From positions 1 to 25,494 of the IMG/VR virus record IMGVR_UViG_3300008267_011834: a stretch of DNA of 25,494 nucleotides; one strand, written 5' to 3'. The stretch's first letter is position 1. Each line of letters begins with the position of its first letter. Shown piece by piece: positions 4,279 through 23,466 of this stretch. The notes below the pieces were generated by a model. That model was not told the DNA's origin. It saw nothing but the letters and a program-made list of their open reading frames with translations, and did not search any database. The translations under genes were made by a program, and so were the position numbers. The DNA comes from a virus.

Positions 4279-4435
4279 AACCTTCTTTTTCGATTTCTTC
4301 TTTTATTAATTGAATATCTAAAGTTAGAGCGATACAAAGTCTTTTTAATGCTCCCCAATCGTTTATAGCTATATTAACTAAAACATCATCTGGGATTGAG
4401 TCAAAAAATGATAATGCGCTCAATTTAGTCTTCAT
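4244..4435 (-). CDS. Small hypothetical protein
   Basis: This encodes 63 residues, starting at ATG 4435 (MKTKLSALSFFDSIPDD). A GTG two codons upstream would add only two residues and is less likely. The protein looks mainly helical (DVLVNIAINDWGALKRLCIALTLDIQLIKEEIEKE) and mildly acidic. It overlaps the 42-residue gene upstream by 11 nt and the sugar kinase downstream by 35 nt, an arrangement typical of phage operons. An AGGTGA stretch lies just ahead of the ATG. I do not recognise a family. Confidence 0.6.
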   Translation of the reverse strand: MKTKLSALSFFDSIPDDVLVNIAINDWGALKRLCIALTLDIQLIKEEIEKEGYENSSDRGNMC

Positions 4436-4553
4436 CTTCACCTAAAATAGACTTTAACCAAGTTGGTTGTTTTTTCTTTTTAGGTTTAATTTTACGATCA
4501 GCGATCCAAATTTTAAGAGTTTCTACTCGTTGGCGGTTGCTTGTCTTACTCAT
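4425..4553 (-). CDS. Small basic hypothetical protein (42 aa)
   Basis: This short frame reads MSKTSNRQRVETLKIWIADR, then a Lys/Pro-rich stretch, then WLKSILGEDED. It starts in the TAAGTTATG context shared by many genes here. The basic body with a short acidic tail could bind nucleic acid or a partner protein, but no family is recognised. The stop falls inside the next gene. Confidence 0.6.
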   Translation of the reverse strand: MSKTSNRQRVETLKIWIADRKIKPKKKKQPTWLKSILGEDED

Positions 4554-4574
4554 AACTTAATTTATTTTTGATTG

Positions 4575-4715
4575 TTATCCTTGTCCTACGCTAGGTTTTT
4601 TATAATTAGTTGCGTTTTTAGCTTTAGAAGTTTTTGTTTTAGCATGAACTCCTGGTCTTGTAACTTTAACTTTTTCTTTTTTAGCTACTGCGGTTTGTGT
4701 TTTAGTTTTTGCCAT
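4575..4715 (-). CDS. Small, highly basic hypothetical protein (46 aa)
   Basis: This frame begins MAKTKTQTAVAKKEKVKVTR and ends with ATNYKKPSVGQG. Nearly a third of its residues are Lys or Arg and there are almost no acidic residues. The RPGVHAKTKTSKAKNATNYKKPSVGQG type of tail resembles tiny basic proteins that I recall from marine T4-like phages, function unknown. It follows a 7-bp hairpin and an A-rich leader. Nucleic-acid binding is a guess from charge alone. Confidence 0.6.
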   Translation of the reverse strand: MAKTKTQTAVAKKEKVKVTRPGVHAKTKTSKAKNATNYKKPSVGQG

Positions 4716-4721
4716 TGAATG

Positions 4722-4743
4722 ATTGGGGTTTTTATACCCCAAT
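4722..4743 (-). promoter_or_regulatory. Intergenic hairpin upstream of the 46-aa gene
   Basis: A perfect 7-bp stem (ATTGGGG / CCCCAAT) with an 8-nt A/T loop sits between the glucosaminidase stop (4749) and the ATG at 4715. No U-tract follows on the minus strand, so it is not a classic intrinsic terminator. It could be an RNA-stability or processing hairpin, or could affect access to the start codon 6 nt downstream. Confidence 0.4.
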
Positions 4744-4748
4744 ACATA

Positions 4749-5312
4749 TCAAAACAAGTCTTTAAGTTTCTCTTTTTCAACTACATTTTTAAGTACTTGA
4801 ACATAATTTCCAGCTTCAGCATAATTTTGGCTTAAGTAGGCATAGTAATCTTCTTCAGTACTAATTCCACCTAAATACCTACACTGATAAAAAGCATAGT
4901 CATAAACTGATTGGTACCAATCATCATAATAAGCATGACCATTTTGAGTACCATTAGCTGTATTAATTCGAACTGTTGCTTGTTTCATTCCAAACAAGTT
5001 GTGGTTTTCTTTAAATACATTACTTGTCCAATGTCCAGTTTCAATAATTGATTGGGCCATTACAATGTGAGGGAATTTTACATTTAATCGTTCAAGTTCA
5101 GCAGCAAATTTTTCTTGAGTAAACTTGTTTTTTTCAGCAGCTAAATTTACTACCAACAATTCTCTTTCTCGCTCATCTAATGCTTTGATTCTAAGTAAAC
5201 GTCCAGCACTAAACGAAATAAGTGATACCACAATAACTGTTCCTAGAGCAATTTTGTGGGCCAATTTGGTTTTAACAAATTGTAGTTTGTTTGGGTCGTA
5301 TTTATAAAACAT
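4749..5312 (-). CDS. Membrane-anchored glucosaminidase (FlgJ/endo-GlcNAcase type)
   Basis: This encodes 187 residues. One hydrophobic segment (about 21-40, IALGTVIVVSLISFSAGRLL) after a basic N-terminus suggests a type II membrane anchor. A short helical linker follows, then a glucosaminidase domain (about 65-187): PHIVMAQSIIETGHW with catalytic-type Glu91, KENHNLFGMK (101-110), YDDWYQSVYDYAFY, and LSQNYAEAGNYVQVL. Such enzymes cleave glycosidic bonds in peptidoglycan. In a phage it would serve host lysis (a signal-anchor endolysin) or wall modification. It is expressed from promoter P3 with the AAAGTTATG start. No holin is recognised next to it. Confidence 0.85.
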   Translation of the reverse strand: MFYKYDPNKLQFVKTKLAHKIALGTVIVVSLISFSAGRLLRIKALDERERELLVVNLAAEKNKFTQEKFAAELERLNVKFPHIVMAQSIIETGHWTSNVFKENHNLFGMKQATVRINTANGTQNGHAYYDDWYQSVYDYAFYQCRYLGGISTEEDYYAYLSQNYAEAGNYVQVLKNVVEKEKLKDLF

Positions 5313-5327
5313 AACTTTTTTATTTGC

Positions 5328-5360
5328 GTGAATATACGAACAATAGTTCGGGTATCCAAA
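5328..5360 (-). promoter_or_regulatory. Bacteroidota-type promoter P3
   Basis: TTTG at 5360-5357 (minus strand) with GGATACC, a 20-nt spacer ending TTCG, then TATATTCAC at 5336-5328. It lies between the 101-aa gene (stop at 5362) and the glucosaminidase, giving a leader of roughly 15-20 nt (AAATAAAAAAGTT) before the ATG at 5312. Confidence 0.75.
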
Positions 5361-5361
5361 T

Positions 5362-5667
5362 TTATTTTATTACTTTTAAAGACTCTATGACTTTAGTGAT
5401 TTCAGCACATTTTTCATATAGTTCTTCTCTAACGTAGTATGGTAAATTTTCCTCTAATGTTTCAACAAAATGCTTACGTTCAACAGTAATATCATATATT
5501 TCGCCTTCTTCTAAGCAAGTAATAGATAAAACGTGTACGTGTTTTTTCTTTGAATTAACATTATCTAAAATACCTTCTACAATTGCTTGAGCAATTCTAA
5601 AGTCTTTGTTGTCTACTAACTCCTGAAATTCCTCAGTGTTATTAACTGTTATTTCTGTTGCTCTCAT
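5362..5667 (-). CDS. Hypothetical protein (101 aa)
   Basis: The protein begins MRATEITVNNTEEFQELVDN. It is acidic, with alternating helices and strands and a central His/Lys patch (KKKHVHVLSITC). No membrane segment, metal cluster or catalytic motif is evident. It follows the 62-aa gene by one base and precedes promoter P3, so it ends its transcription segment. Family not recognised. Confidence 0.65.
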   Translation of the reverse strand: MRATEITVNNTEEFQELVDNKDFRIAQAIVEGILDNVNSKKKHVHVLSITCLEEGEIYDITVERKHFVETLEENLPYYVREELYEKCAEITKVIESLKVIK

Positions 5668-5668
5668 A

Positions 5669-5857
5669 TTAAAATAAATCTAAAAATTTTGTGTTGATTT
5701 CTTTACCTTTTAATCTACTATTTTTTTCGTCTTTTTCTAACATTTTAGTAGTAAGATTTTCAAGGTGTTTGGATTTTTGGGCATCGTAGTCATTAACTAA
5801 CTTATCGTGCTTTTTGTTTTTACCCTTTTTGAGTAAAGGGATTCGTTTTGGTTTCAT
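5669..5857 (-). CDS. Small Lys-rich hypothetical protein (62 aa)
   Basis: This protein starts MKPKRIPLLKKGKNKKHDK and is very basic at the N-terminus and more balanced later, ending KFLDLF. It is likely helical from about residue 20. It overlaps the HTH/HNH-like gene by ATGA (start at 5857, upstream stop at 5854), which supports translation. No family is recognised. Confidence 0.6.
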   Translation of the reverse strand: MKPKRIPLLKKGKNKKHDKLVNDYDAQKSKHLENLTTKMLEKDEKNSRLKGKEINTKFLDLF

Positions 5858-6495
5858 ATTCTTGATATTAAATCTAACCCATCATCAACTGGTTTTGAAT
5901 CATATAAACCTAATTCTTTCAAACGTTGTTGAGTATAGTCGTCAACTTCCCAATCAACTTTTGATTCATTTTTGCTTACATGATCTTCTAGACCACCCAG
6001 CTGTTTGTCGGTAAATATATCTCCAATTTGTAGAAAATAATGATTGTAACATAACATTTCTAAATTTTCTAATCTATAATGCTGTTTATTACCATCTTTA
6101 AAATTTAAAATAAGAGGCATTTTATAATCTAATACTCGTCTTTCATGGAATCCACAAACAGAACATTCTTCTAATAAATAACCTTCTTGAATTAAGCGAT
6201 ATTTTATTTTAGCTGGATTGAATGATGATGGGTCGATTCTGCCTTCGATTAAATCTAATAATGCAAAATCCTTTCTTGGGTTACCGTTACTTAGGAATTT
6301 GGGAATCCCTTTACCACATTGGTTTTTATGTTTATCAAATAATACCTCACCGGTTTCAGCATCCTGGTAGAGTTTAGCCCATTTCTTAAAGTGAAGGTAA
6401 GAAACATTTAGGTAACGTGCTGCGGCTTTATTAGACTTTGTCTTATTCATTGCCGCCACTACCATTTCTTTAGATAGGGGTTTTGCTTTAGGCAT
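5854..6495 (-). CDS. Helix-turn-helix plus degenerate HNH-like protein
   Basis: This encodes 213 residues. Residues ~8-42 (VVAAMNKTKSNKAAARYLNV, then YLHFKKWAKLY) look like a helix-turn-helix. The C-terminal part has the HNH zinc scaffold C111-x2-C114 ... C149-x2-H152 and the usual PLxL...DGN..NYRLENLxxLCxN frame at 127-151. However, the segment normally reading L-D-H-I-D-G here reads L-N-F-K-D-G, so the catalytic His position is Phe132 and the preceding Asp is Asn. I therefore expect DNA binding but weak or no nuclease activity. It may be a regulator derived from a homing enzyme. It overlaps its neighbours by 1-4 nt. Confidence 0.7.
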   Translation of the reverse strand: MPKAKPLSKEMVVAAMNKTKSNKAAARYLNVSYLHFKKWAKLYQDAETGEVLFDKHKNQCGKGIPKFLSNGNPRKDFALLDLIEGRIDPSSFNPAKIKYRLIQEGYLLEECSVCGFHERRVLDYKMPLILNFKDGNKQHYRLENLEMLCYNHYFLQIGDIFTDKQLGGLEDHVSKNESKVDWEVDDYTQQRLKELGLYDSKPVDDGLDLISRI

Positions 6496-6806
6496 TATTC
6501 TTCTATTTTAACATCGCCTGGAGTTGGTAGATTATCATGTGAATCTTCATCTCCATTGTATTCTGCTTTAGGAGCACTAGAGGCAATTTTCCTCATTTTA
6601 TTTTCAGCGGCCATGTATTGTTGGTACTCATCGTGTTCCAAAAATATGGTTTCAACCCAAGTATGGTCACCTTCTCCTTTTAATAATGTTACTGCTCCTT
6701 TTTTCTGTACTGTTGAACACGGAACACATGTTACAGCATTTGGAATAATTTCTAATCGTTTTGGGTGGATTTGCTCACCACATCCTTTACAATATCTTAC
6801 ATTCAT
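6495..6806 (-). CDS. TraR/DksA-type C4 zinc-finger protein
   Basis: This encodes 103 residues. The N-terminus has C6-x2-C9 and C27-x2-C30 with the TraR/DksA-like text CKGCGEQIHPKRLEIIPNA followed by CVPC. The remaining ~70 residues are polar with an acidic tail (PTPGDVKIEE). DksA/TraR proteins act at the RNA polymerase secondary channel through a coiled coil, but a coiled coil is not evident here, so only the zinc finger is supported. A role in transcription or DNA binding is inferred. It starts in the AAAGTTATG context. Confidence 0.7.
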   Translation of the reverse strand: MNVRYCKGCGEQIHPKRLEIIPNAVTCVPCSTVQKKGAVTLLKGEGDHTWVETIFLEHDEYQQYMAAENKMRKIASSAPKAEYNGDEDSHDNLPTPGDVKIEE

Positions 6807-6811
6807 AACTT

Positions 6812-7183
6812 TTATTTTAATTCTATTTTTTTAATAAATTCCCACAGTTCTTCTACTGTCTCAATAAATATTTCTTCTTCGGTTTCCTTAATATGATCGT
6901 TTAGATTAATTGGAAGCACACTTCCATCCTCATCAAATCGTTCAAATAACCACCACAACATAATATCACCTTTCCATTCTCCATAGTGCATGTAAATTAA
7001 ATTTTCAATAACTATATAAAATGGTTCTTCATAATTTGATATACCTAAACCAAATTCACCTTCAATAACGTTAGAACGAACCCAACATTCATTTAATAAC
7101 CCTACAACTTCTACAAATAAATCTTTATCAGTTGGGTCTTTAGTACGTGACTTTATATTTAGGTGTTTACCAAAAGGTGTCAT
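6812..7183 (-). CDS. Hypothetical protein (123 aa)
   Basis: The protein begins MTPFGKHLNIKSRTKDPTDK. It is acidic and Trp/Tyr-rich in the middle (YMHYGEWKGDIMLWWLFERFDEDGS) with an acidic helical tail (EEEIFIETVEELWEFIKKIELK). The style resembles small conserved T4-like phage proteins of unknown function, but I cannot name a family. Its ATG overlaps the stop of the 52-aa gene upstream (ATGA). Confidence 0.65.
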   Translation of the reverse strand: MTPFGKHLNIKSRTKDPTDKDLFVEVVGLLNECWVRSNVIEGEFGLGISNYEEPFYIVIENLIYMHYGEWKGDIMLWWLFERFDEDGSVLPINLNDHIKETEEEIFIETVEELWEFIKKIELK

Positions 7184-7338
7184 ACAATCGTTATAATAGC
7201 GTATAATTTTAAAAATTCCTTAAGAGGCAACTGCTTCCGCCCAGCAAATATTTTAGCCGCTTGTAGACGTGATAATGTTACTGTGCGGTTAATTACTTCT
7301 TGATGTTTGTCGTAACGTGAATAATATCCGAATACCAT
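7180..7338 (-). CDS. Small hypothetical protein (52 aa)
   Basis: This short frame reads MVFGYYSRYDKHQEVINRTV and ends with LKLYAIITIV. The region LSRLQAAKIFAGRKQLPLKEFLKLY has the amphipathic helix-turn-helix look of small DNA-binding phage proteins, but this is only suggestive. It is supported by an ATGA overlap with the next gene and by the promoter-like P5 just upstream. Confidence 0.6.
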   Translation of the reverse strand: MVFGYYSRYDKHQEVINRTVTLSRLQAAKIFAGRKQLPLKEFLKLYAIITIV

Positions 7339-7344
7339 AATTGT

Positions 7345-7376
7345 GTAAATATAATAATAAGTATTTAAAAATCCTA
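7345..7376 (-). promoter_or_regulatory. Weak promoter-like sequence P5
   Basis: TATATTTAC at 7353-7345 on the minus strand matches the -7 box of P1 and P2. At the expected 20-nt distance there is TAGGAT (7376 downward) instead of TTTGGAT. It would separate the glycan block from the downstream small-gene block. The -7 box is good and the upstream box only partial. Confidence 0.45.
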
Positions 7377-9080
7377 GTTTATTATGAGAGAATTTTGATA
7401 TTCACTCATATGAATTATGTTTATTGTAAATATATCTAATTCAAATGTTCCTATATCTCCACTGTCTTTTATAATTTCTGAAAGTTGATATAAAATTTGA
7501 ATGTTTTGATTATTTAATTTAGATGCATCAAATGATACTAAAATATTGTTTTGCTTTTCATTATCATAAGGTTTAATACGCTCTTGAAGATCAAATTTAG
7601 TATTAGATTGTTCTTTTTGTATATAATCAGGAACAATTAACTGCATATCATCTTTAATATAAATTGTTGAACACCATGGTTCTAGTATCTCTAAATGAGG
7701 TAATCCACAATTGGATACTATAAAACCTACATCATATTTAGGAGGAATAATTGGTTTCATTAATGAATCATGTTTACAAAAATGACCCCATTTACGAATA
7801 AAATTACGAGTAGATCTTATATTTTGAGCTTCCCATTCTGAACTATTAGTTCCTGGAGTTGTTAATGTTGGGTTGAATCTAGAACCTCTACAAGTCATAT
7901 GATAAACACATCCTTCCCATGTTTGGAGAAATTTAACTCCATTTAATTGAAAACGATTAAAAATATCACTATCTTCTTTTGATTGAGGAGCATATAAAGG
8001 ATCATGACCACCAATTTCCTGGAAGTCAGATTTCATAAATGCCCAAGGAGCGAATACACCTTCTGTAGGTTGGTAATGTTTTGGTTTTAAATCATTTTTA
8101 AACCAATTTAAAAATTTATCTTCATCAAATTCTTCTGTTTCAATTCCAAAATCAGCAAGTATTTTTTCAGGTCCATCTGGGTGTAATGGTGGTTCGATTC
8201 TGGTTAATGATACAATTGTTTTTGGTGCAATGTATTTTGAAATTTCATTTAATGCGTTAGGACATAAGTACATATCAGCATGATAAATCATACAAATATC
8301 ATGTGTAGCTACTTCATTTACTAATTTATCATATAAAATAGTATGTCCTAAACGAGTTGGTCCTTCATTTCTAATTGCTTTAAAATAAGGATCTTTTTGC
8401 ATCATTTCTTGACACCATTCCCAAGTACCATCGTTACTAAAATCATCAGCTATACAAATTTCTGCTTCGTGATCCCCTTGATTTTTTCTTATAGCATTAT
8501 AAGACCATTTTAGATATTTAAGATTATTTCTAGAAGGTTGTATAAAACTAATTTTTATATTTGTACTTTTTTTATTTATTCTATCTAAAACTTCTTTTTT
8601 AGGTTTTAAAGCTACTATACTTTGACCTGATTGGACATAATCAATAACATCATACCATTTTTCAACAATAAAATATTGAGAACGTTGCCAATAATCATGA
8701 ATAAAGACAATACTATCTTCTTTTAAGTATGGTAATACTTTTTCAGCACACCATCCTCTACCACGACCATCTATTAAAACTCTATCAAATTTTTCTACTC
8801 CTAATTTATCAACAAAATCTAGGTATGTTTGTACTTGAGTTTTTTGGGTTGGGTCTGTTAGGGGTTTATCTAACTCTATTAAGTGATAATCTACATTATC
8901 CGGTGTTTCTTTTTTTACATTATCAAACCAACTTGGATCGTGTTCGATTGAATAATATTTTTTTACATATTTAGGAAATTCAGTAGTTGACCCTCCTGAA
9001 CCCCATTCTAACATAATGTGTGAAGGATCTAAATTTGATTTTATTAAATCAATTTCTTCGTTTGACATCCAAATTTGCAT
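7374..9080 (-). CDS. Fusion: class I methyltransferase-like + GT2 glycosyltransferase
   Basis: This encodes 568 residues. Residues 1-165 are methyltransferase-like: HIMLEWGSGGSTTEF (motif I), YYSIEHDPSWF (acidic ribose-binding residue), KFDRVLIDGRGRGWCAEKVL and DSIVFIHDYW. Residues ~175-400 are a family 2 glycosyltransferase: KISFIQPSRNNLKYLKWSYN, CIADDFSNDGTWEW and MIYHADMYLCP, where HAD takes the DxD-like metal position; later GGHDPLYAPQSKEDSD is typical of the acceptor side. Residues ~430-568 (YDVGFIVSNCGLPHLEILEP) are not recognised. The protein could methylate and transfer sugars on one glycan. It lies 2 nt behind another GT2 gene. Confidence 0.82.
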   Translation of the reverse strand: MQIWMSNEEIDLIKSNLDPSHIMLEWGSGGSTTEFPKYVKKYYSIEHDPSWFDNVKKETPDNVDYHLIELDKPLTDPTQKTQVQTYLDFVDKLGVEKFDRVLIDGRGRGWCAEKVLPYLKEDSIVFIHDYWQRSQYFIVEKWYDVIDYVQSGQSIVALKPKKEVLDRINKKSTNIKISFIQPSRNNLKYLKWSYNAIRKNQGDHEAEICIADDFSNDGTWEWCQEMMQKDPYFKAIRNEGPTRLGHTILYDKLVNEVATHDICMIYHADMYLCPNALNEISKYIAPKTIVSLTRIEPPLHPDGPEKILADFGIETEEFDEDKFLNWFKNDLKPKHYQPTEGVFAPWAFMKSDFQEIGGHDPLYAPQSKEDSDIFNRFQLNGVKFLQTWEGCVYHMTCRGSRFNPTLTTPGTNSSEWEAQNIRSTRNFIRKWGHFCKHDSLMKPIIPPKYDVGFIVSNCGLPHLEILEPWCSTIYIKDDMQLIVPDYIQKEQSNTKFDLQERIKPYDNEKQNNILVSFDASKLNNQNIQILYQLSEIIKDSGDIGTFELDIFTINIIHMSEYQNSLIIN

Positions 9081-9082
9081 AA

Positions 9083-9979
9083 TTATAAATCTAAATTAAA
9101 ATATTTCTTTGCGTAGTGTTTTCTTACTTCTGGGTAGAAATCTAAATCAGGGAGTTTGCGTTTCCAAATTCTACCGTCCTTAGATAACAATATTCCTTCA
9201 TTTCCTAATAATGAGGGATTACTAACAGGTTCCCATTTTAAATGATGAAATTCTACCCCAGTTAAATTATTACCTCTATCTAAACTACCACCTTCATTAT
9301 TTCTACTTCCAGCATCATCTTCTTGTCCTGTAATAGTAGATAATCCTATTACTTTGTGATTAGAATTTTCTGAGTTGCAGTAGTATGTAAAATTATCTTC
9401 TTGGTGGAATAATTCTTTTTTAGCTTCTATATAAGGTAAAATTGTATTAATATATTCTTGCGGGAATGGAATATGTTGTGCCCATGTTCCGTAAGGGGAA
9501 TAACCTAAACATTCAACTGTTCGTAAATACCAATCATCATCTTCCATACTAGGATAATAACGATATCTTTCATCCCACCAACCCATTCTTACTATTGTTT
9601 GTTTGTGAAAAACAACAGCATTCCAAGCATTTAAATGTATCTGTTCTAATTGAGGTTTTTCTTCTAAAATATTACTTAATACATCGAACCAATCTTCATC
9701 AAATAACATGTCATCACACGTCATTAACACCCAATCAGTTTCACTTTGAATAATGCCCTGATTCCATGCTTTAGTTAATCCTATATTGTCAGGACTATAA
9801 ATAAATTTTACATGAGGATGGTTTTGTTCTGCTTGTTTTACTTTTTCTAACTCTTCACCTGTTGTATTATTATCCCAAACGATAATATTAGGTACATTTT
9901 TTAAAGTATCTAAACATCTATTTAACCTAGATCCCCTATAATAACTTACAATAACAATTGTTATATCGTTTATATTCAT
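9083..9979 (-). CDS. Family 2 glycosyltransferase
   Basis: This 298-residue protein is a GT-A fold enzyme: ITIVIVSYYRGSRLNRCLDTL at the N-terminus, NIIVWDNNTTGEELEK (nucleotide-binding Asp), IYSPDNIGLTKAWNQGI and WVLMTCDDMLFDEDWFD with C-D-D as the metal-binding DxD equivalent (about residue 90). YYPSMEDDDWYLR near 165 is the usual ED motif for the catalytic base. It transfers a sugar from a nucleotide donor to an unknown acceptor. It overlaps the upstream methyltransferase by ATGA and is followed closely by the fusion gene. Confidence 0.9.
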   Translation of the reverse strand: MNINDITIVIVSYYRGSRLNRCLDTLKNVPNIIVWDNNTTGEELEKVKQAEQNHPHVKFIYSPDNIGLTKAWNQGIIQSETDWVLMTCDDMLFDEDWFDVLSNILEEKPQLEQIHLNAWNAVVFHKQTIVRMGWWDERYRYYPSMEDDDWYLRTVECLGYSPYGTWAQHIPFPQEYINTILPYIEAKKELFHQEDNFTYYCNSENSNHKVIGLSTITGQEDDAGSRNNEGGSLDRGNNLTGVEFHHLKWEPVSNPSLLGNEGILLSKDGRIWKRKLPDLDFYPEVRKHYAKKYFNLDL

Positions 9980-10536
9980 TTTTTAATAACTGATAATGAA
10001 GGGAAATTAGGATCTAGTAATTGATAGTTTGTTTGTTCCTTAATTGAATTAATAGGTGTAGCGTTATATTTAATCATCCATTCTACATTATCTCTTTCTT
10101 CGCTTCCACCTTCAAACAAAACAATACTTCCATTATTAATTTGATTAGAAAGAATTTCATATGTTTTTAAAATAGTATCTCCAGTATTAGAAATATCTAA
10201 ATGCATCATATCAAATTGTTCTGGGTTGTTTAGCCATTCATAATAATCCATTTGGATAAATTCAACATAATCTTCTACACCATATTTTTTAACATTTTCT
10301 ATAGTTTGTTGGATTGTTGAATGTTTATATTGATAATTTTCCCATAGGTCATAACATTTAAGTTTACCTTGACCTAATTCTTTTAAAGCTAATCCAATAG
10401 CTACTGTTGAATAACCATATAAACAACCAAATTCAACTATTAATTTTGGTTTATGTTCTAAAACATAGTTATAAATTGTTTTTCCAATATCATTAATTTG
10501 ATATGATGATTCTATTTGTGGGTTTGTGTAGTTCAT
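9976..10536 (-). CDS. Class I SAM-dependent methyltransferase
   Basis: This encodes 186 residues. LIVEFGCLYGYSTVAIGLAL (about 33-52) is motif I with the Methyltransf_24 style, KLKCYDLWENY gives the acidic motif II residue, EFIQMDYYEWL and FDMMHLDISNTGDTILKTYE follow, and GSIVLFEGGSEERD is the late strand. The substrate is not readable; by context it is probably a sugar or a glycan end group. ATGA overlaps on both sides place it firmly in the operon. Confidence 0.85.
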   Translation of the reverse strand: MNYTNPQIESSYQINDIGKTIYNYVLEHKPKLIVEFGCLYGYSTVAIGLALKELGQGKLKCYDLWENYQYKHSTIQQTIENVKKYGVEDYVEFIQMDYYEWLNNPEQFDMMHLDISNTGDTILKTYEILSNQINNGSIVLFEGGSEERDNVEWMIKYNATPINSIKEQTNYQLLDPNFPSLSVIKK

Positions 10537-11166
10537 AGTGTTGTATTTTCTCTAGTGTGTAAAAAATCATTATTAGATTTAAAAGGTTTTAATTTAAACC
10601 CAGCTTTTATAAAATCATTTGTAAAACTGGTTTCATAATTGTGTTCTCCTTGATATAAATCATTTGGTATTAAAATATTAGGATTATTAATTTGTTCTAT
10701 ATTAGGAGTTTGTAGATATTCTGGTATTGTTTTTATTACTTGTTTTATTGTTTTTGTTGATGTTAGTCCAATACCACCATGAGCATGAGCAGCTATATGT
10801 GAATCAGTAATATAACCATTTTCTAGTGGATATGTACCATGTCCAAATTTATGATTGTAATCTAAAGCAGCAATAAATCCGGCATCATCATCACTTTCAA
10901 AGTCATTAATTAACTTTTGAGTTACATTGTCATTTAAAACAATAATATCGTCTTCACTAAAAAACCAATAATCATATTCATCTTGAAGTAAATAAAAAGC
11001 ATATTTATAAGATCCAAAACTAAGGTCTGAACTGATTAGTGGGCGCAGGATCAACTTTACAATGGTTTTCAATTTGTTGTTTAAAAAGATCCATTGTTAT
11101 TTCTTTAGTTTTAGGATAATGTCTCCTATCTCCAAAATAAAAAGCTAATACTTTTGCTACTTTCAT
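10533..11166 (-). pseudogene. Broken glycosyltransferase-like gene (frame change near 11045)
   Basis: The ATG at 11166 overlaps the GNAT stop by ATGA and opens a frame reading MKVAKVLAFYFGDRRHYPKT, running to a stop at 11020. The rest of the gene lies in another frame (to 10533) with RPLISSDLSFGSYKYAFYLL followed by DEYDYWFFSEDDIIVLND, where SEDD is an acidic metal-site-like motif. Both parts look protein-like. The joint at about 11041-11050 has no plausible linker, and I would expect some tens of residues between NHCKVDP and RPLISSDLSFG, so an internal deletion that also shifts frame is more likely than a single-base error. The second frame has its own ATG at 11072, but that form would lack the N-terminal strand. 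Confidence 0.7.
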
Positions 11167-11585
11167 ATTTCGTTTTTTACATATTCCATTTCAATATATA
11201 ATTTTTCTCTAATATACTTAAAATTTTTTGTTTCTACAAATCCTAATTTAATATAGAGATTTTTAGCAAAATTATTATCAAAAACCCACAATTTAGCATA
11301 CTTTTTATCTTTTAAATATTCTAAAAAAGCTTGTTTTGCATAACCTTTTTTTCTAAAATTCATATGAATATCTATTCCAACATATTCATTATCTATTCTT
11401 ATATATCCAACAGGAGTATTATCTACTTCTATAATAAACCAAGGAGAATTTAAAGTTTTAAACCATTTTGTACATTGTTCAATACTAAAAACAGAATTAT
11501 TTTCTAAATTCTCCCTAGTTGATTCATGGTTTCTTACTTCAAGTAAAAAAGGTAAATCTAACTCATTTAACTCTCTTATTACCAT
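11163..11585 (-). CDS. GNAT-family N-acetyltransferase
   Basis: This encodes 140 residues. It begins MVIRELNELDLPFLLEVRNH, a typical GNAT first strand and helix; GYIRIDNEYVGIDIHMNFRKKGYAKQ carries the acetyl-CoA pyrophosphate loop (RKKGYAKQ, about 82-89), and NFAKNLYIKLGFVETK is the last conserved helix-strand. Next to a sugar aminotransferase, the likely job is N-acylation of an amino sugar, as with PseC/PseH or FdtB/FdtC pairs; the pairing is established, the substrate is inference. It overlaps the aminotransferase by 7 nt and the following gene by ATGA. Confidence 0.85.
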   Translation of the reverse strand: MVIRELNELDLPFLLEVRNHESTRENLENNSVFSIEQCTKWFKTLNSPWFIIEVDNTPVGYIRIDNEYVGIDIHMNFRKKGYAKQAFLEYLKDKKYAKLWVFDNNFAKNLYIKLGFVETKNFKYIREKLYIEMEYVKNEI

Positions 11586-12752
11586 CCTTTTTTAATACAA
11601 TTAACAATATATTCTCTTTCCTCTTCGGTTATCCACCAACCTACAGGAATAGAAACTACTTTTCCAATTGTTTTATCTAATGTTGGTAGAGCTGTTTTAA
11701 ATTCTCTAACACAAGAATGTTTATCATTACGTTCATGAACCTGAGATACTACAATATTACACTCTTTCATATGCTTCATAAATTTATCTCTATCTTCTAC
11801 TAATAGACTATAAATCCAGAATGCTGATTCTCTATCATTATGACGAGTTAATAATGTTACTCCGTTTACATCTTTAAGATGTTGATCGTAATAAGCGGCG
11901 TTTGATTGGTGCTTTTTAATAATATCATCAGCATGTTTTAAATTTTCAATACCAACAGTAGCACAAATATCATTCATATGGAATTTAAATCCCCATTCTT
12001 CAATATCAGCTTCACATCTAAAATCTTTACGGTTTGAATTTCTATCAATTCCATACCAACGAAGCAATTTAGATCTATTATATAATTCTTGGTGTGGTAA
12101 AGTTAATAATCCACCATCAATAGCAGTAATATGTTTAATTGCTTGAAGAGAATACATAACCATATTACCATGATTACCTAAATTTTTACCTTTATATTTT
12201 GAACCAAATGAATGAGCTCCATCTTCAATTACTGCTGGTTTGAAACCATGTAGTTGTTGTGCTTTTTCTTGTATTTGTTTTATACGATCTAAATCATTTG
12301 GATAACCACCCCAATGTACTAATATAATTGCTTTGGTTTTAGACGTTATTTTACGCTCTAAATCATCTAAATCCATATTAAGTGTAGTAGGATCAATATC
12401 TGTTAGCTAAAATTGGGAAGTTTGATGCTGTACATGTTAAAGCTGTAGCTAATACTTCATCTCCATCTTGAATACCAGGCCATTTTTGATCCCAATAAGC
12501 AAGCCCCTCAAAATTTTTAACAGTTTCTGATGGTCTTTTTAATAGATGTAATGCTAAATGAAGAGCAGATGTACCTGAGTTAAGTGTAATTACATGATCA
12601 AAATCTAAATAATTTTGGATTTGTTTTTCTAATTCATCTACTTTAGGACCTTGTCCTATGTAGCCACTATTTAATATTTTCCCAACTTCTTCAGCTGCTG
12701 TTGGGGCCATGTGCACTTTAAATAATTGAATTGGTTCTTTAGGTTTTTTCAT
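11579..12752 (-). pseudogene. Broken DegT/DnrJ/EryC1-type sugar aminotransferase
   Basis: Two frames carry the two parts of one protein. The first (12752-12393, 119 codons) holds LFKVHMAPTAAEEVGKILNS, SGYIGQGPKVDELE, the PLP-phosphate loop LNSGTSALHLAL and ALTCTASNFPILAN. The second (to 11579) continues DIDPTTLNMDLDDLERKIT, then VIEDGAHSFGSKYKG and the PLP lysine motif YSLQAIKHITAIDGG, ending PVGWWITEEEREYIV. The break is at about 12393-12405. In relatives some 7-8 residues ending IKWAD/V join LAN to DxDP; here only about one extra base remains, suggesting a deletion near 20 nt. Intact members transfer an amino group to a keto-sugar nucleotide. Confidence 0.85.
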
Positions 12753-12754
12753 AA

Positions 12755-13378
12755 TTATAATGTATTATAATAATTGTTTTGTTTTTCTTGTCTTTCTATT
12801 GTTTTTGGGTGATACAAGCAAAATTCTTCTTCTGCTGGTAAGTGGGTAAATATTTTAGCACCATCAATTCGCTCATGAACTTTATTTACCCAAGTTATAT
12901 TTTGAGTTTTTCTGTATAATCGAGATTGATAATCTGGAAAATTAACCCAACCATTTTCGTCTACCATCCATCTCCATTGTTTAATATGTTCTGGGGTAAT
13001 ACCTTCTACTGTGTTAATTCTAGGAATCCAATATAAATCTACATCTGGGTTTGATTCTAATATTTCGGGTAATAAAGCAATGAGTTGTTCATTTGGATAC
13101 TCATCAGCATCAATTTGAAATATAAAATCACCATCACATAGACTAGCTAAAGTATTTTTCCAATCAGCAAAATGATTATAAAATGGTTTTGCAATCCATA
13201 AAAATTCACTATTTGCTGAATGTGTTCTAAGGTATTCCTCTACTTGTTTAGAACCATTTGTCTCATCTAACAAAATAACTATTTCATCTTGAGAACGTTT
13301 ATAATTTAGTAAAAGACTTACTAAGCGTTGTATTTCGCTTAGCTCGTCTTTAACTGTTATTGCGTAACTTATCTTCAT
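12755..13378 (-). CDS. Family 2 glycosyltransferase
   Basis: This encodes 207 residues from the ATG at 13378 (MKISYAITVKDELSEI). An ATG seven codons upstream would overlap the previous gene and adds a non-typical leader. Motifs are EIVILLDETNGSKQVEEYL, LASLCDGDFIFQIDADEYPN with the DxD metal site (DADE, about residue 93-96), and a late KVHERIDG. This looks like the WaaE/KdtX-like branch of GT2 enzymes, which act in LPS-core or capsule-type sugar transfer. It is shorter than bacterial relatives (about 250). The stop lies 2 nt before the aminotransferase start. Confidence 0.85.
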   Translation of the reverse strand: MKISYAITVKDELSEIQRLVSLLLNYKRSQDEIVILLDETNGSKQVEEYLRTHSANSEFLWIAKPFYNHFADWKNTLASLCDGDFIFQIDADEYPNEQLIALLPEILESNPDVDLYWIPRINTVEGITPEHIKQWRWMVDENGWVNFPDYQSRLYRKTQNITWVNKVHERIDGAKIFTHLPAEEEFCLYHPKTIERQEKQNNYYNTL

Positions 13379-13379
13379 A

Positions 13380-13835
13380 TTACTCAGGTAATACACCAAT
13401 GTACGAAAGTGCTTCTATATAGTCACGCTTAGTAAACATTTTTAGTGTAGTCATATCCATTCTCCATTCGTAAAATTTACCTTTTTGATTTGGAATTGGA
13501 TATTTTTCTTTTTCTTCTTCATTAACAGGTACTGCTTTTACTGCTGCCCATCCCCAATCGGTTTTAGATGGACCATTAGCAAATATCATACCTTGTTGAG
13601 GTAAATTAATGGTTGAAGGCATCCAAATAATTTCATCTTCATCTTTTTCAAGCAAATCTTTATAAAGTTCAGGTAAAATTGAAATTTGTTCTTGATAAAA
13701 ATCACTACCTTCTTTCATCAGTGAGTTTGTTTGAAAACCACATCCGTAGCAAAAATAAGTACTAAGTTCTTGATTTACTTCTTCAACATAGCAAGCATCT
13801 GAGCCGCAGTGTTTACAAATTATTAAGTTATCCAT
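13380..13835 (-). CDS. Zinc-ribbon hypothetical protein
   Basis: This 151-residue protein begins MDNLIICKHCGSDACYVEEV and has two Cys pairs, C7-x2-C10 and about C29-x2-C32 (YFCYGCGF), forming a zinc ribbon. The remainder (WMPSTINLPQQGMIFANGPS, then WGWAAVKAVPV and YEWRMDMTTLKMFTKRDYIEAL) is Trp-rich and looks like a small folded domain of unknown role. It sits inside the glycosyltransferase run, overlapping the GT4-like gene by 8 nt. It could be a scaffold or regulator, but that is not shown. Confidence 0.7.
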   Translation of the reverse strand: MDNLIICKHCGSDACYVEEVNQELSTYFCYGCGFQTNSLMKEGSDFYQEQISILPELYKDLLEKDEDEIIWMPSTINLPQQGMIFANGPSKTDWGWAAVKAVPVNEEEKEKYPIPNQKGKFYEWRMDMTTLKMFTKRDYIEALSYIGVLPE

Positions 13836-15120
13836 TTGTTTTTTGTAATTTAGGTAATTCTACTTTTTTTAATTGAGGTAGTTTTAATTCTACCTGAGTC
13901 GGGAAATCTGGAATGTATTGGGTAAGTAATGTATCTGTTTTTTCTGCCATTTTATCCCAATTAAATTCTGTTTTAGATTTATACGCTTGGCGATTAGCTT
14001 TGTCAGTATAATTTTTATAATTTTCAAATACATCTTTTAAATAATGACCTATTTGACTATGATCTGGTGAAAACCATTGTGAATCAGAAAGTAAAAATTG
14101 GTTTGCAGTATTTGGATGTACATTAGTTAATTGACCTCCAATTAAATTAGTAAACTCAGGATTTAAGAAATCCATTTGTCCACTCCATCCTGTAGTAATT
14201 AATGGTTTTTTAACTACTGTAAATTCAAGTAATGGACGACCAAAACCTTCACCTTTAGTTAAGCTAACCATAGCTTTTACTTTAGAATGATTATAAATTT
14301 CATTCATTTCTTCGTCTGTAAATTCACCATGTAATAGATAAACTTTAGGGAGATTAGTTGAGTTTACTGTTTTACGAATTAACTTAATTTTCTTTAAAAT
14401 TTCTTCTCTATCAATGTACGATGAACCTACTTGAGATGTTTTTAGAATTAAAGCTGGTTTTTTGGTTTTATTTTTAAATGTTTCATAGAATGCTTTAACT
14501 AATAAACCTACGTTTTTTCTATCTTCACCCATATCACCTTGCATCCAGTGACCTACAAACAAGTAAGCAAAATCTTCTTTAATATTAATATCAAGAGAAC
14601 ATGGGGTATTAAGTACTTTGTAAATATCTGTATTAACACCTTCAAATAATACTTCGATTGGTTTTTCTAATTTAACTACTCCTTCTAAAGCATTAGTTTG
14701 TTTATTTCTTTTTTCAAATTGAGAATCTTGAAATACTTTTTTAGAATGTTCAGATGAAACAATATTTAAATCCATTCTATTACAACCTTCAATCCATTCA
14801 GCAGCACAAACTGTGCTTTCAATACCAGCTGTAAAACCAATATTATATTTTCCTACAGGTTGAAATTCATTCGGTACAGTTACCTGAGCCCAAATTTCTG
14901 GTTGTTGGTTTAATTGATTATTAGTTAATACTAAATCTAATAGGAATGCCCATTCTGGATTGCTTTTACAAAATCCAAATGGAGTAGCACCCCAACGTTG
15001 TGATAATAGTTTAACATTATATTTATCTGTTTTAATAATGGCTTTAATTAAATCCCTTGAACGAGCACCGTAGCCACTAAAGGTGTCAAATGGGGAACTT
15101 ATAATAAATGTTGGTTTCAT
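13828..15120 (-). CDS. GT-B glycosyltransferase, GT4-like
   Basis: This encodes 430 residues. The N-terminal domain starts FIISSPFDTFSGYGARSRDL with the glycine-rich loop typical of GT4 enzymes. The C-terminal donor-binding domain has FEGVNTDIY, YLFVGHWMQGDMGEDRKNVG, VYLLHGEFTDEEMNEIYNHS and KGEGFGRPLLE, giving the E-x7-E signature for nucleotide-sugar binding. A Lys/Pro-rich tail (LKLPQLKKVELPKLQKTNG) is unusual and may be an interaction peptide. Donor and acceptor are unknown. It lies one base after the preceding GT-B gene. Confidence 0.88.
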   Translation of the reverse strand: MKPTFIISSPFDTFSGYGARSRDLIKAIIKTDKYNVKLLSQRWGATPFGFCKSNPEWAFLLDLVLTNNQLNQQPEIWAQVTVPNEFQPVGKYNIGFTAGIESTVCAAEWIEGCNRMDLNIVSSEHSKKVFQDSQFEKRNKQTNALEGVVKLEKPIEVLFEGVNTDIYKVLNTPCSLDINIKEDFAYLFVGHWMQGDMGEDRKNVGLLVKAFYETFKNKTKKPALILKTSQVGSSYIDREEILKKIKLIRKTVNSTNLPKVYLLHGEFTDEEMNEIYNHSKVKAMVSLTKGEGFGRPLLEFTVVKKPLITTGWSGQMDFLNPEFTNLIGGQLTNVHPNTANQFLLSDSQWFSPDHSQIGHYLKDVFENYKNYTDKANRQAYKSKTEFNWDKMAEKTDTLLTQYIPDFPTQVELKLPQLKKVELPKLQKTNG

Positions 15121-15121
15121 C

Positions 15122-16567
15122 TTAATATAACAATTTATGATTTATAACTCTATCAGGAACTTCATTGCAATCAATTAGTTCAAATTTTTCTCTTGGTTTC
15201 CAAGTACTAAACAATGTATCAAATGCTTCAATAATTCTTTCGCCTTGTTTTTCACCTGTAAATCCGGCTTCATTTCCTGTAGCCCATTCTCTACCTTTTA
15301 AACCTCTAGCTTTACGTTCTTCTTTACCTAAATCATAAACAGCTTTAATTTGTTTAGCAGCATCTTCTGATTCACATCTATCATCATAAATGTAAGGTGT
15401 TGGAGGTGAACCTACAATTGATCTAGAGGTTGGATAAACTGGGAATGCCCATTCACCATGTTTTTTAATTGTACCTCTATGGTTTGAAGGGAAGTCAGCA
15501 TCAAAATCAATCCAAGTACCATCTTCAAATTCAAAACGCATTTGATCTTGCATACCACCTGTTACGTTAGCAATAATAGGATTCCCTACTAATAACGCTT
15601 CAGTTAAACTTAATCCCCATCCTTCATTTGATGTTAATTGAATCTGGCAATTTGTACTGTTGTACAACAAATTCATTTGGTAATTATTAAATACTTGATT
15701 TGTATAAACAACATTATATTGCTCACCATTCAATAATAATTCTTGTACTGCTGGTAGATCTGTTCCATGATCACTTACTTTTTCAGTATGAAGTAACAAA
15801 CAACATTTTTTAGCTTGTTCAATAGGTAATTGATCAATAAAATGTCTATAAGCTAACATTGTATCTGGAATTTGTTTGCGTCGAATATTTCTAGAGTTAA
15901 AGAATAAAACAAACTCATATTCTTTTCCATCAAACAATTGTTTTTTAAATTCTTGAAGTTCGCTCCATTTTTCATGTTTTTCATCAATAGGGAAAATTAA
16001 TTCACTATTTAATCCATGAGGAACATAACGGATAACTTTATTATTAGCTTTATCGTCTAATACCAGTTTATTAATGTTTACAGTTTGTTTAGAAATTCCC
16101 ATCAATAAATCACACGCTTCATAATAAGGTTTATTATATAACGGTGCTGGATAATCATCCCAAATATTTAAGTAAGCAATTGGAAGTGATTTACGAATTT
16201 CATTTTCCATAGCAAATAACCAAACAAAATAACGTGGATCAGTAATCAACATTATAGCATCTGGTTTTTCTAACTCAATAATATTTCTTAAAATATCTGG
16301 GTTTCCATAATCATTTACTGGGTACATTGTAACAGATGAATCTGTTAAACCTGTTGTTTCGTTTGTTGATTGAGATAAATCTAAACGTTTACCTTGTTCT
16401 GGGTGATTGATAGCTCCCCCAAGATTAACCCAATTAAAATGTTGAGATGTTTGGATTACTACTTCTCTTCCTACTGTTGCTACTCCTGAATGGACTCTAA
16501 TATCATCACAGATAAGTAGAATTTTTTTACGCTGCTCTGGTGGCAGATATTTAAAACTATTATTCAT
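15122..16567 (-). CDS. GT-B glycosyltransferase (GT1/GT4-like)
   Basis: This 481-residue protein begins with ILLICDDIRVHSGVATVGRE (N-terminal Rossmann domain with a Gly-containing loop). FVLFFNSRNIRRKQIPDTML starts the second domain, and SNEGWGLSLTEALLVGNPII near 315-335 gives the E-x7-E donor-binding signature, followed by GGMQDQMRFEFEDGTW. This is a retaining GT-B architecture of the GT4 kind. It is the first of the two GT-B enzymes and is separated from the ribbon-helix-helix gene by 21 nt. The product is unknown. Confidence 0.88.
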   Translation of the reverse strand: MNNSFKYLPPEQRKKILLICDDIRVHSGVATVGREVVIQTSQHFNWVNLGGAINHPEQGKRLDLSQSTNETTGLTDSSVTMYPVNDYGNPDILRNIIELEKPDAIMLITDPRYFVWLFAMENEIRKSLPIAYLNIWDDYPAPLYNKPYYEACDLLMGISKQTVNINKLVLDDKANNKVIRYVPHGLNSELIFPIDEKHEKWSELQEFKKQLFDGKEYEFVLFFNSRNIRRKQIPDTMLAYRHFIDQLPIEQAKKCCLLLHTEKVSDHGTDLPAVQELLLNGEQYNVVYTNQVFNNYQMNLLYNSTNCQIQLTSNEGWGLSLTEALLVGNPIIANVTGGMQDQMRFEFEDGTWIDFDADFPSNHRGTIKKHGEWAFPVYPTSRSIVGSPPTPYIYDDRCESEDAAKQIKAVYDLGKEERKARGLKGREWATGNEAGFTGEKQGERIIEAFDTLFSTWKPREKFELIDCNEVPDRVINHKLLY

Positions 16568-16588
16568 ATAACTAATTTGGTTGTTTTT

Positions 16589-16780
16589 TTAATTTTTAAT
16601 GTCTAAATTGTTGTGGTTGTGTACTTTTTTTCTAAAATCTTCATCAGTAAGGTACAAATGAATTGTACGATCGGCAAGTTTTTGTAGCGAAAATTTGTAT
16701 TTTACACAAGCAATTTTAAAACTGTCAAACAAGTCGCTTTTAACTTTTACGCTTGTTAACGTCATATCTTTTTTTTCCAT
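16589..16780 (-). CDS. Ribbon-helix-helix-like small protein
   Basis: This encodes 63 residues: MEKKDMTLTSVKVKSDLFDS, a short strand (TSVKVK), then two helices (LFDSFKIACVKYKF and SLQKLADRTIHLYLTDEDF). This is the Arc/MetJ-type ribbon-helix-helix layout, known for dimeric DNA-binding repressors and antitoxins. No toxin partner is seen. Sitting in front of the glycosyltransferases and behind an A/T-rich gap (16781-16830) that could hold a weak promoter, it may regulate the operon. That role is inference. Confidence 0.65.
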   Translation of the reverse strand: MEKKDMTLTSVKVKSDLFDSFKIACVKYKFSLQKLADRTIHLYLTDEDFRKKVHNHNNLDIKN

Positions 16781-16830
16781 AGCTTTTATTATTTATTTGT
16801 TATATATAAATATATAGGGATTCCTTAAAA

Positions 16831-17814
16831 TTATAATACTTCAACAAAGGAATATTTAAATATCCAATCTCTATCTTCTTCAATATTTAAATCAAGTTCT
16901 TTTAACAATTTATTGTTTATGAATATTTTTATATGTTCAATATTCTCAAAATCTAAAGGATACCAAAACCACATTTTTGGATTTAATACATTATTAATAC
17001 TGTGTTTTTTATTAACTATAACATCTACATTAATTTGATCTTTAGTATTATTAAAACAAAAAATACTTAATTTTCCATCAAAAAAATGAATATTAGTAGG
17101 GGTAGAATTAAAATCTACTCTAACTGTATTAGTTATAAATGATTGATCTAAATCATTTTCTGAGTTTAGTTTACAAACATAGTAATTTAATTTACTCCAA
17201 ACATTATCAAAAATCATTCTTTCAAATACTGGGAGTTTATTTGATCTGTAATAATTTAAATATTGGTTTTTTAATTCTTGTTGAGAAAAAAATAATGACT
17301 CATGAGATATAGTTTTTAAATTAACACTTTGAAATCCATAAACACAAGTTAAAATATCATTTTCATAAAATCTAGGAAATGAATAAAATACAGCATCTTT
17401 TTCTTTTAGAATTTCTATATTTCTATCCCACATTTCTCTATTTTTTACAATAGTATCATATTCAACCATATGAACTATTTCTTCATTTAATGATTTTAAA
17501 TAAGATAAACCCCCTAAGTACATTCTAAAAACAGGAAGCATGTGAGTTGATATAGAACTATAATCAACAAAATTAAATCGAACATTTTCTATATTATGGT
17601 GATACCAATATTTTATTTCTGGGTTATATAGAACTTCGTTTTCTTTATCATATAAAAAGTAATCACATCTATCTATTATGTCCTGTGGTGTAGATGTATG
17701 AGTAGCTAAACAAATTCTATAATCAAGATTTTTTAATGATATAATTAAATTTCTAAGATCATCTTGTCTTTGTTGATCAGGGGTATAAGCTGATATTAAT
17801 ACTATTTCTTTCAT
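16831..17814 (-). CDS. Putative glycosyltransferase-like protein
   Basis: This encodes 327 residues starting MKEIVLISAYTPDQQRQDDL. The N-terminus alternates strands and helices like a GT-A nucleotide-sugar domain (LKNLDYRICLATHTSTPQDI). A single acidic cluster, HMVEYDTIVKNREMW (about 115-129), sits where a DxD motif would be expected. The C-terminal ~80 residues are Asn/Ile/Lys-rich and beta-like. I cannot assign a CAZy family. The ATGA overlap with the nuclease gene upstream joins the replication block to the glycan block. Confidence 0.55.
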   Translation of the reverse strand: MKEIVLISAYTPDQQRQDDLRNLIISLKNLDYRICLATHTSTPQDIIDRCDYFLYDKENEVLYNPEIKYWYHHNIENVRFNFVDYSSISTHMLPVFRMYLGGLSYLKSLNEEIVHMVEYDTIVKNREMWDRNIEILKEKDAVFYSFPRFYENDILTCVYGFQSVNLKTISHESLFFSQQELKNQYLNYYRSNKLPVFERMIFDNVWSKLNYYVCKLNSENDLDQSFITNTVRVDFNSTPTNIHFFDGKLSIFCFNNTKDQINVDVIVNKKHSINNVLNPKMWFWYPLDFENIEHIKIFINNKLLKELDLNIEEDRDWIFKYSFVEVL

Positions 17815-19850: not shown

Positions 19851-20034
19851 TTTTATATTTTTTATAATCTAAATAAAATCCAATTGCTACAATAATATTC
19901 ATACCAAAGGACATAAGGATTTCATATATGTCTTGGTACACATTCATAGTTAAGTGAACATGTCCTACCATCCAGAACGGTATGGACAAATTACTTGATA
20001 TCCAAGTTAAAAGATAAACTATGAAATGTTTCAT
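19813..20034 (-). CDS. Small membrane protein (73 aa)
   Basis: Two hydrophobic segments are visible: about 3-23 (HFIVYLLTWISSNLSIPFWM) and about 39-55 (EILMSFGMNIIVAIGFYL), followed by a charged and Thr-rich tail (DYKKYKNEQTTTTPTNEH). It probably spans the inner membrane twice. It starts in the AAAGTTATG context and overlaps the thioesterase by 4 nt and the next gene by 38 nt. No family is recognised; being an inner membrane protein within a replication operon is unusual. Confidence 0.6.
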   Translation of the reverse strand: MKHFIVYLLTWISSNLSIPFWMVGHVHLTMNVYQDIYEILMSFGMNIIVAIGFYLDYKKYKNEQTTTTPTNEH

Positions 20035-20432
20035 AACTTTGAGTCTGGTGTTTTAAACATTCTTTTAACCTGTTCTGAGATAGGAATAGGTGTTCCTTCA
20101 TCGTCTACTCGAACAAAAGTCATATGTGTTTTTAGGATAATTTCTTCATCACCTCTAAACACATTGTATGTTCTAGCTTCAACTTCAAACGTAGCTGATG
20201 TATTGCCTATTTTAGTCATATCAGCATATATTTTTACTAATTGACCTTCTTTAGCTGCTTTTTCAAATACACATTTATCTAAGGCAATGGTAATCATATT
20301 TTTACTATGACATTTTTCCATTGCATAAGCAGCTACGGCGGCATCAATCCAACTCAATAATTTTCCACCAAATAGATTTCCATGAAATCCTAAATCGAGT
20401 TTTTTAACAGGGTGAGTTGAAATTAAGTCCAT
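20031..20432 (-). CDS. Hotdog-fold acyl-CoA thioesterase
   Basis: This encodes 133 residues. FHGNLFGGKLLSWIDAAVAA (17-36) is the classic acyl-CoA hydrolase signature (hotdog helix with Gly-Gly and the Asp of the active site, as in YciA/BFIT-type enzymes), followed by VKIYADMTKIGNTSATFEVE and MTFVRVDDEGTPIPI. Family members hydrolyse acyl-CoA to free fatty acid and CoA in the cytoplasm. The gene is complete and is joined to gp44 and the small membrane protein by 1-4 nt overlaps. Its purpose in a replication operon is not known; lipid or acyl-sugar metabolism during infection is possible. Confidence 0.88.
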   Translation of the reverse strand: MDLISTHPVKKLDLGFHGNLFGGKLLSWIDAAVAAYAMEKCHSKNMITIALDKCVFEKAAKEGQLVKIYADMTKIGNTSATFEVEARTYNVFRGDEEIILKTHMTFVRVDDEGTPIPISEQVKRMFKTPDSKL

Positions 20433-23464: not shown

Positions 23465-23466
23465 AA

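Follow-up and report, generated by a model that had tools for sequence, protein, structure and literature searches.

Genes that build sugars and attach them to viral or host structures have been described in several systems. In mimivirus, the fibrils are served by a cluster of aminotransferase, acetyltransferase, methyltransferase and glycosyltransferase (GT) genes (PMC10117803). In mycobacteriophages, virion glycosylation by phage GTs has been shown, according to work cited in PMC12363180. In pelagimyophages, GT-rich hypervariable islands carrying rfaE have been read as modifiers of the host O-chain (PMC7029224). Here we describe an island of related content in the IMG/VR record IMGVR_UViG_3300008267_011834, a complete record of 25,494 b (hereafter the window). 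Since its open reading frames (ORFs) have ordered homologues in 80 loci (the IMG/VR and immuto sequences that carry at least four island genes), far beyond chance, the glycan island is, judged from sequence, real. We favour, tentatively and with a chance a little short of even, the explanation that it is a modular glycan-assembly island, in which a constant core is joined to an exchangeable arm that would make a capped 4-amino sugar glycan, with a virion protein as the acceptor.

The cultured phage that shares the island core in order at the protein level is Flavobacterium phage vB_FspM_immuto (Immutovirus; 160 kb, Baltic Sea); a megablast search with the window matched none of the cultured phages. 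In immuto gp169-gp182, the core has the same order beside a PD-(D/E)XK nuclease, namely nuclease, small protein, GT, GT, Zn-ribbon protein, GT2 and aminotransferase, with a right-arm GT (48% match) at the far end. The immuto aminotransferase (~58% match) is intact, unlike that of the window, and its right arm is otherwise different, with a second transaminase, a 'pilin glycosylation' protein and an epimerase. In the region compared, immuto has neither a GNAT of the kind found in the window nor an HldE-type kinase homologue. The Microcystis phage Mel-JY01 shares a GT4.

The hypervariable islands (host recognition cluster, HRC) of pelagimyophages and cyanomyophages, which are T4-like phages, are GT-rich and variable, carry rfaE and UDP-sugar genes and lie between conserved modules (PMC7029224). 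The window likewise combines GTs with sugar-precursor enzymes. However, HRC belongs to the structural region, where the tail fibres are, and its GTs are mainly GT8, whereas the window's island lies outside that setting, between replication/chaperonin genes and an endolysin, and has GT4 and GT2 together with an aminosugar module. We regard it as an island that would work like HRC and do not file it as one. The nine-gene fibril cluster of mimivirus (viosamine; L142 acetyltransferase, R132 methyltransferase) is alike in grouping an aminotransferase, an N-acetyltransferase, a methyltransferase and GTs, an arrangement found with its order intact in the phage relative L083 and with the aminotransferase and a GT broken in the window. 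Unlike the window's island, which has no 4,6-dehydratase and is known from its genes alone, mimivirus has its own nucleotide-sugar pathway and its fibril sugars have been determined. Mycobacteriophages Che8, Corndog and Myrna also encode GTs with virion proteins as the proposed acceptor, and glycosylation was shown there on capsid and tail proteins (PMC12363180); the window's island is a larger gene set and is known from genes. The literature on phage glycan islands otherwise yielded general precedents only. What sets the present island apart is its position, a module of the CalS13 type in which the caps are interchangeable, and the clear exchange of a block of genes.

Constant core and right arm

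The core and the arm of the island comprise the following genes.

15122-16567, - strand: GT4-type glycosyltransferase, constant core (PF00534, E 8e-6; phrog_2170)
13828-15120, - strand: GT4-type glycosyltransferase, constant core (PF00534, E 3.5e-6; 58% identical to immuto gp180)
13380-13835, - strand: Zn-ribbon protein, constant core (weak Zn-ribbon match; also in immuto)
12755-13399, - strand: GT2 glycosyltransferase, end of constant core (PF00535, E 2.6e-9; in 62/63 loci)
11579-12752, - strand: DegT-type sugar C4-aminotransferase, disrupted (PF01041 in both pieces, E 2.3e-14 and 2.4e-50)
11163-11585, - strand: GNAT acetyltransferase (PF00583, E 4.6e-8; weak PseH similarity)
10533-11166, - strand: GT, disrupted (5' piece 11023-11166, 3' piece 10533-11072; by alignment with intact L083/L084)
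9976-10536, - strand: MT24 methyltransferase (PF13578, E 1.7e-14)
9083-9979, - strand: GT2 glycosyltransferase (PF00535, E 2.3e-13; 73-81% identical in L083/L008)
7374-9080, - strand: methyltransferase::GT2 fusion (PF13578, weak, at the N-terminus; PF00535, residues 178-286)

All genes of the window are on the - strand. The island is flanked by GroEL, clamp loader and PD-(D/E)XK nuclease genes on one side and by HNH and endolysin genes on the other. Its gene gaps are mostly -20 to +21 nt and nearly all starts are coupled, as a first-pass annotation of this DNA had said; its count of at least two methyltransferase domains in 7374-17814 also agrees with Pfam, which finds two (one weak). Rfam and tRNA scans of the window gave no matches.

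The core is the most stable part. The order of the GT4 pair is kept in all 63 loci that have it, and the two genes are adjacent in 56. The Zn-ribbon gene separates the GT4 genes from the GT2 of the core in 29 of these 63 loci. The true start of the core GT2 is probably the internal ATG at ~13378.

The right arm (~7311-12757) behaves differently. The nearest relatives found are contigs G036-G038, whose kinase is 95% identical to that of the window. Alignment of these contigs to the window holds at 92% nucleotide identity over 3535-7311 and then ends; homology picks up again at 12757 and runs through the GT core at 84%. Most flanking proteins are 80-97% identical between the window and G038, and the GT4, GT4 and Zn-ribbon proteins 80-89%. 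G038 has no counterpart of window 7311-12757, and in its place are genes for an SDR epimerase, an unknown protein, an FkbM methyltransferase, an MT24 protein and a GT2. The window thus differs from G038 and G037 by a block swapped between near-identical flanks. The distant G042 carries an alternative arm of the same kind as G038. L083 is the opposite case: its core proteins are only 35-47% identical to those of the window, yet its arm has the genes of the window's arm in unchanged order and with all frames intact (aminotransferase, GNAT, GT, methyltransferase, GT, methyltransferase::GT). The C-terminal piece of the window's aminotransferase is 84-86% identical to its homologues in L003, L007 and L008, whose core proteins are 48-72% identical. 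The simplest reading is that the arm recombines between phages as a block, by horizontal exchange.

Single genes also come and go. Relative to G038, single-step presence or absence is seen for the gene of a predicted GT-A-fold protein described below, a thioesterase (20031-20432), 24163-24534 and a methyltransferase pair (1983-3547). Within the arm, the GT half of the fusion protein (~400 aa) is very widespread, occurring in 75 IMG/VR loci, and elsewhere is also free-standing or joined to another N-terminal domain; in the ~675-aa GTs of L095, L117, L133 and L041, a different, unannotated domain of ~270 aa replaces the methyltransferase. In an AlphaFold2 model of the fusion (pLDDT 87), the GT appears to resemble chondroitin/heparosan synthases and polypeptide GalNAc-transferases alike, a fold that leaves the acceptor undecided.

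The phage itself is probably a large tailed phage of about the 160 kb class, related to immuto. Its host is probably a member of the Bacteroidota, as suggested by the GC content of the window (24-36%), the lack of clear Shine-Dalgarno sites ahead of its genes, and the kinship with immuto.

Two interrupted genes of the right arm

In the window the aminotransferase is read as two ORFs (12393-12752 and 11579-12376). Comparison with six relatives shows them to be one gene, split by an exact deletion of 20 nt, encoding part of GLKIKWV, with loss of frame. In relatives, the homologous ORF is intact, at 380-440 aa, in ~90 of 93 cases. The gene overlaps the following GNAT by 7 nt at its stop. The next gene is a GT listed as 10533-11072, whose true start is the ATG at 11166. 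Aligned with its intact counterpart in L083 (254 aa), it has lost ~115 nt, which breaks the frame. The aminotransferase/acetyltransferase pair of the first-pass annotation is therefore present as to its domains, both recognized by Pfam (PF01041, PF00583), but its first member is not an intact frame here. The same qualification applies to the larger proposal of a phage programme for tailoring and transferring a sugar: gene content and conservation support it well, and in the window as assembled neither the aminotransferase nor one of the GTs is intact.

Selection on the aminotransferase gives some indication of timing. In its two halves dN is ~0.08-0.23 and dS 0.6-1.2, which points to purifying selection until recently; dN being well under dS, any loss would be recent. 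Neither deletion junction was found in any other IMG/VR contig (the window's own record was possibly excluded from the search), and a nearby exact match from that search, L250, belongs to a different phage, in which the frame is intact at this point. Both deletions are compatible with recent mutation and with a fault of assembly, which are not separable from the sequence here.

If the deletions are real, the right arm would be decaying, the aminotransferase and one GT would be recent pseudogenes, and the island would be non-functional or make a truncated glycan. Two out-of-frame deletions 1.3 kb apart, with intact neighbouring genes and selection maintained until recently, fit this course of events. 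However, the deletions rest on one assembly and their junctions recur nowhere else, and all other genes of the island are intact. We consider decay possible, at slightly under one chance in two. Equal weight is given to the view that the deletions are artefacts of assembly and that the phage has both genes intact. That the aminotransferase is intact in nearly all relatives and under strong purifying selection, and that two independent breaks lie within 1.3 kb with no further damage, are consistent with an artefact, against which there is nothing direct.

A predicted 4-amino sugar and its proposed acceptor

The aminotransferase has the DegT/DnrJ/EryC1/StrS fold, and its closest structures are two sugar aminotransferases, AtmS13 and CalS13. 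Compared with the PDB, the intact relative L008 matches AtmS13 (4XAU/4ZWV) at E ~1e-120 and CalS13 (4ZAS) at E 7e-111, and the families that follow at E 1e-35 or worse. Intact phage relatives align with these enzymes over the catalytic domain (E <= 1e-110), the catalytic-lysine segment included, and the catalytic Lys (K213 of L008) is invariant in 16 viral sequences. Sequence comparison places the aminotransferase among the C4 sugar aminotransferases, in the CalS13/AtmS13 clade. Unlike these two enzymes, the phage proteins form a group of their own with an insert, and the window's copy is frameshifted. CalS13 and AtmS13 both come from antibiotic aminosugar or aminopentose pathways, that of AtmS13 being an aminopentose pathway, and the in vitro product of CalS13 is a 4-amino-4,6-dideoxyglucose nucleotide. 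Cellular genomes seldom carry the clade (44 loci in 84,980), and many of its members there are from actinomycetes and some from short contigs of metagenome-assembled genomes, which may be viral. In L160, L161 and L162, aminotransferases 59-68% identical to the phage proteins lie on short contigs binned as archaea and are probably from misbinned viruses. Neighbours of the clade in the 44 cellular loci include a GT, a capsule gene and an SDR, which do not fix the substrate.

The gene that follows the aminotransferase is variable. It is a homologous GNAT in 32 of 86 loci. A Pfam scan of the next gene in 49 of the remaining loci found 10 further GNATs, methyltransferases of several families, five DUF1919 proteins, three hexapeptide acyltransferases, two formyltransferases, two weak sulfotransferase matches and one ketoacyl synthase III, a chemistry that mostly caps amino or hydroxyl groups. 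If the product were an N-substituted 4-amino sugar, the aminotransferase would be expected to stay constant while the caps change; the pattern suggests a 4-amino sugar whose caps are interchangeable.

The donors are probably drawn from the host pool, because nucleotidyltransferases are rare: of 37 long relatives, just three have an RmlA-type NTP_transferase. Use of a host donor had been anticipated in the first-pass annotation. The other class sought, SDR dehydratase/epimerases, is present in 25 of the 37, though none is in the window. In L028:7074-8456, a HAD phosphatase and an NTP-transferase domain are joined in one protein, of a cluster that occurs near the aminotransferase in 19 islands.

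In the favoured explanation, the core (GT4, GT4, Zn-ribbon protein, GT2) is followed by the block-exchanged arm, which when intact, as in L083, would work as follows. From a 4-keto nucleotide sugar of the host, most likely dTDP-4-keto-6-deoxyglucose, the C4 aminotransferase would form a 4-amino sugar, the GNAT would N-acetylate it, and the GTs and methyltransferases would build an oligosaccharide and O-methylate it. In the window's copy, the first step and one GT would be interrupted and a simpler glycan would be expected, if the assembly is right. If the module works as its genes suggest, it would provide a rare amino sugar, made by a type of enzyme that, outside these phages, is known chiefly from producers of antibiotics. 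A wider proposal, which we hold to be doubtful, is that the phage group shares a locus for combinatorial glycan diversification, comparable in phages to the serotype loci of O-antigens, with a constant GT core, interchangeable arms and a CalS13-type aminotransferase with swappable capping enzymes (acetyl, formyl, methyl and other acyl), so that even close relatives display chemically different virion glycans. If this is true, the cap would be changed by gene exchange, and phage surface chemistry would be an evolving and testable trait, for which immuto offers one cultured representative.

As all island enzymes look cytosolic, the acceptor would most likely be a protein of the phage that is in the cytosol when modified and later becomes part of the virion. 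No membrane segment is predicted in any island protein. A lipid-carrier phosphoglycosyltransferase (PGT; PF02397) and a flippase (PF01943) were found in none of the 37 relatives in searches whose controls rang, GtrA/GtrB types not being separately searched, and the thymidylate synthases (TS) of relatives are mostly canonical. Because of these three features, a virion protein is the favoured, if unproven, acceptor; the absence of PGT and flippase and the canonical TS weaken the host-surface and DNA options. Several points weigh on the other side. No gene for an acceptor has been identified, and the island is not among the structural genes. The Pfam negatives cover partial contigs, and the GTs, PGT and flippase of the host could complete a surface pathway. 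The order of the pathway is conjecture, and the clade's substrate may be a 4-keto-pentose instead of a 6-deoxyhexose.

If the host surface were the target, the cytosolic enzymes would act on a lipid-linked O-unit or the lipopolysaccharide core, the host would export the product, and the O-chain so remodelled would serve superinfection exclusion. The GT-rich hypervariable islands of pelagimyophages with rfaE and UDP-glucose dehydrogenase have been read in this way (PMC7029224). The G042 island has a UDPG_MGDP_dh protein, an rfaE-like kinase is encoded in the window, a separate protein resembling rfaE_dom_II occurs in long relatives, and fast module exchange would suit an arms race at the host surface. 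On the other hand, no cluster of the Wzx/Wzy O-antigen type, with an initiating PGT and a flippase encoded by the phage, is found in the 37 relatives, no GmhA-type SIS protein accompanies the kinase in 18 contigs that carry it and no membrane protein is predicted in the island. A lytic phage, moreover, would benefit only late in infection. Surface remodelling is regarded as unlikely. GTs can act on modified bases in other phages. That sugars are put on a modified base of the phage DNA to block nucleases is very unlikely in our view: the island does adjoin replication genes (clamp loader, PD-(D/E)XK nuclease) and immuto does have a 7-deazaguanine DNA-modification pathway, but a hydroxymethylase does not seem to be general, the canonical motif PFN-I being present in 14 of 16 TS-fold proteins of relatives, and five to seven GTs with several methyltransferases exceed the needs of a base adduct.

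Glucosylation based on hydroxymethylcytosine or hydroxymethyluracil thus does not appear general among the relatives, two of the 16 proteins being atypical and the genome of the window's phage incomplete. The atypical proteins, L214 and L219 (motifs KPYND and TPTDV, in relatives G030 and G004), are possible base-modifying enzymes. The search for TGT (PF01702) missed the annotated DpdA of immuto and that for Tet_JBP (PF12851) had no ringing control, so both are uninformative. The 7-deazaguanine set of immuto (L158:3467-4261 and neighbours; annotated DpdA, QueC/D/E/F and FolE) lies near its glycan cluster.

Kinase, optional genes and neighbours

The remaining genes of interest lie on either side of the core and arm.

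16831-17814, - strand: predicted GT-A-fold glycosyltransferase with a C-terminal beta domain, optional gene (AlphaFold2 model and Foldseek)
16589-16780, - strand: small conserved protein, probable ribbon-helix-helix regulator (directly upstream of the first GT4 in 21/63 loci)
3544-4278, - strand: shortened HldE/RfaE-type PfkB sugar kinase, backbone gene (TIGR02198 rfaE_dom_I, E 1e-37, below cutoff)
2597-3547, - strand: FkbM methyltransferase, first gene of an inserted pair (PF05050; absent from G038)
1983-2597, - strand: MT24 methyltransferase, second gene of the pair (PF13578, E 2e-14; absent from G038)

The product of 16831-17814 (327 aa) has no match in Pfam, NCBIfam or PHROGs. Its AlphaFold2 model (pLDDT 88.5) finds GT-A/nucleotidyltransferase folds as the best Foldseek matches in the PDB, at E ~1e-6 to 1e-5 with modest TM-scores of 0.3-0.5, glycogenin and the PBCV-1 capsid GT 2P6W among them. 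The gene is precisely absent from G038. We predict it to be the seventh GT of the island, found by fold alone; five others are recognized by Pfam, in keeping with the at least five GT domains earlier counted in 7374-17814, and the sixth is the disrupted one. The ribbon-helix-helix call for 16589-16780 is plausible and the gene is conserved, but its matches are not significant, with E 0.07-0.18 for single members against ribbon-helix-helix Pfam models and 0.12-0.5 for the profile against such proteins in the PDB.

The kinase and the two methyltransferases (1983-4278) had been taken for the second part of one pathway. This idea is rejected, since comparison with G038 shows the two methyltransferases to have been cleanly inserted between 1976 and 3535, while the kinase stays as part of the backbone. 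The kinase is found in 20 IMG/VR contigs, some with a different island, and has homologues in cyanophages. Its link to the island is one of proximity alone; in L019 a relative of it lies inside the island. It may activate a sugar 1-phosphate. A full heptose (HldE) pathway is not supported, the kinase being short and a GmhA-type SIS protein being present in none of 18 kinase-bearing contigs. A small stand-alone CTP_transf_like protein occurs in six of the 18, and that of G038, the one tested, is most like RfaE domain II. In L246:9343-9765, a stand-alone nucleotidyltransferase resembling RfaE domain II accompanies a separate kinase gene, a split HldE without GmhA.

Outside the island, the hotdog thioesterase 20031-20432 is found in the window and in L011 and is cleanly absent from G038; immuto also has a hydrolase/thioesterase gene. 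The GroES/GroEL pair (21803-23760) adjoins the clamp loader, and GroES/GroEL are found in immuto as well.

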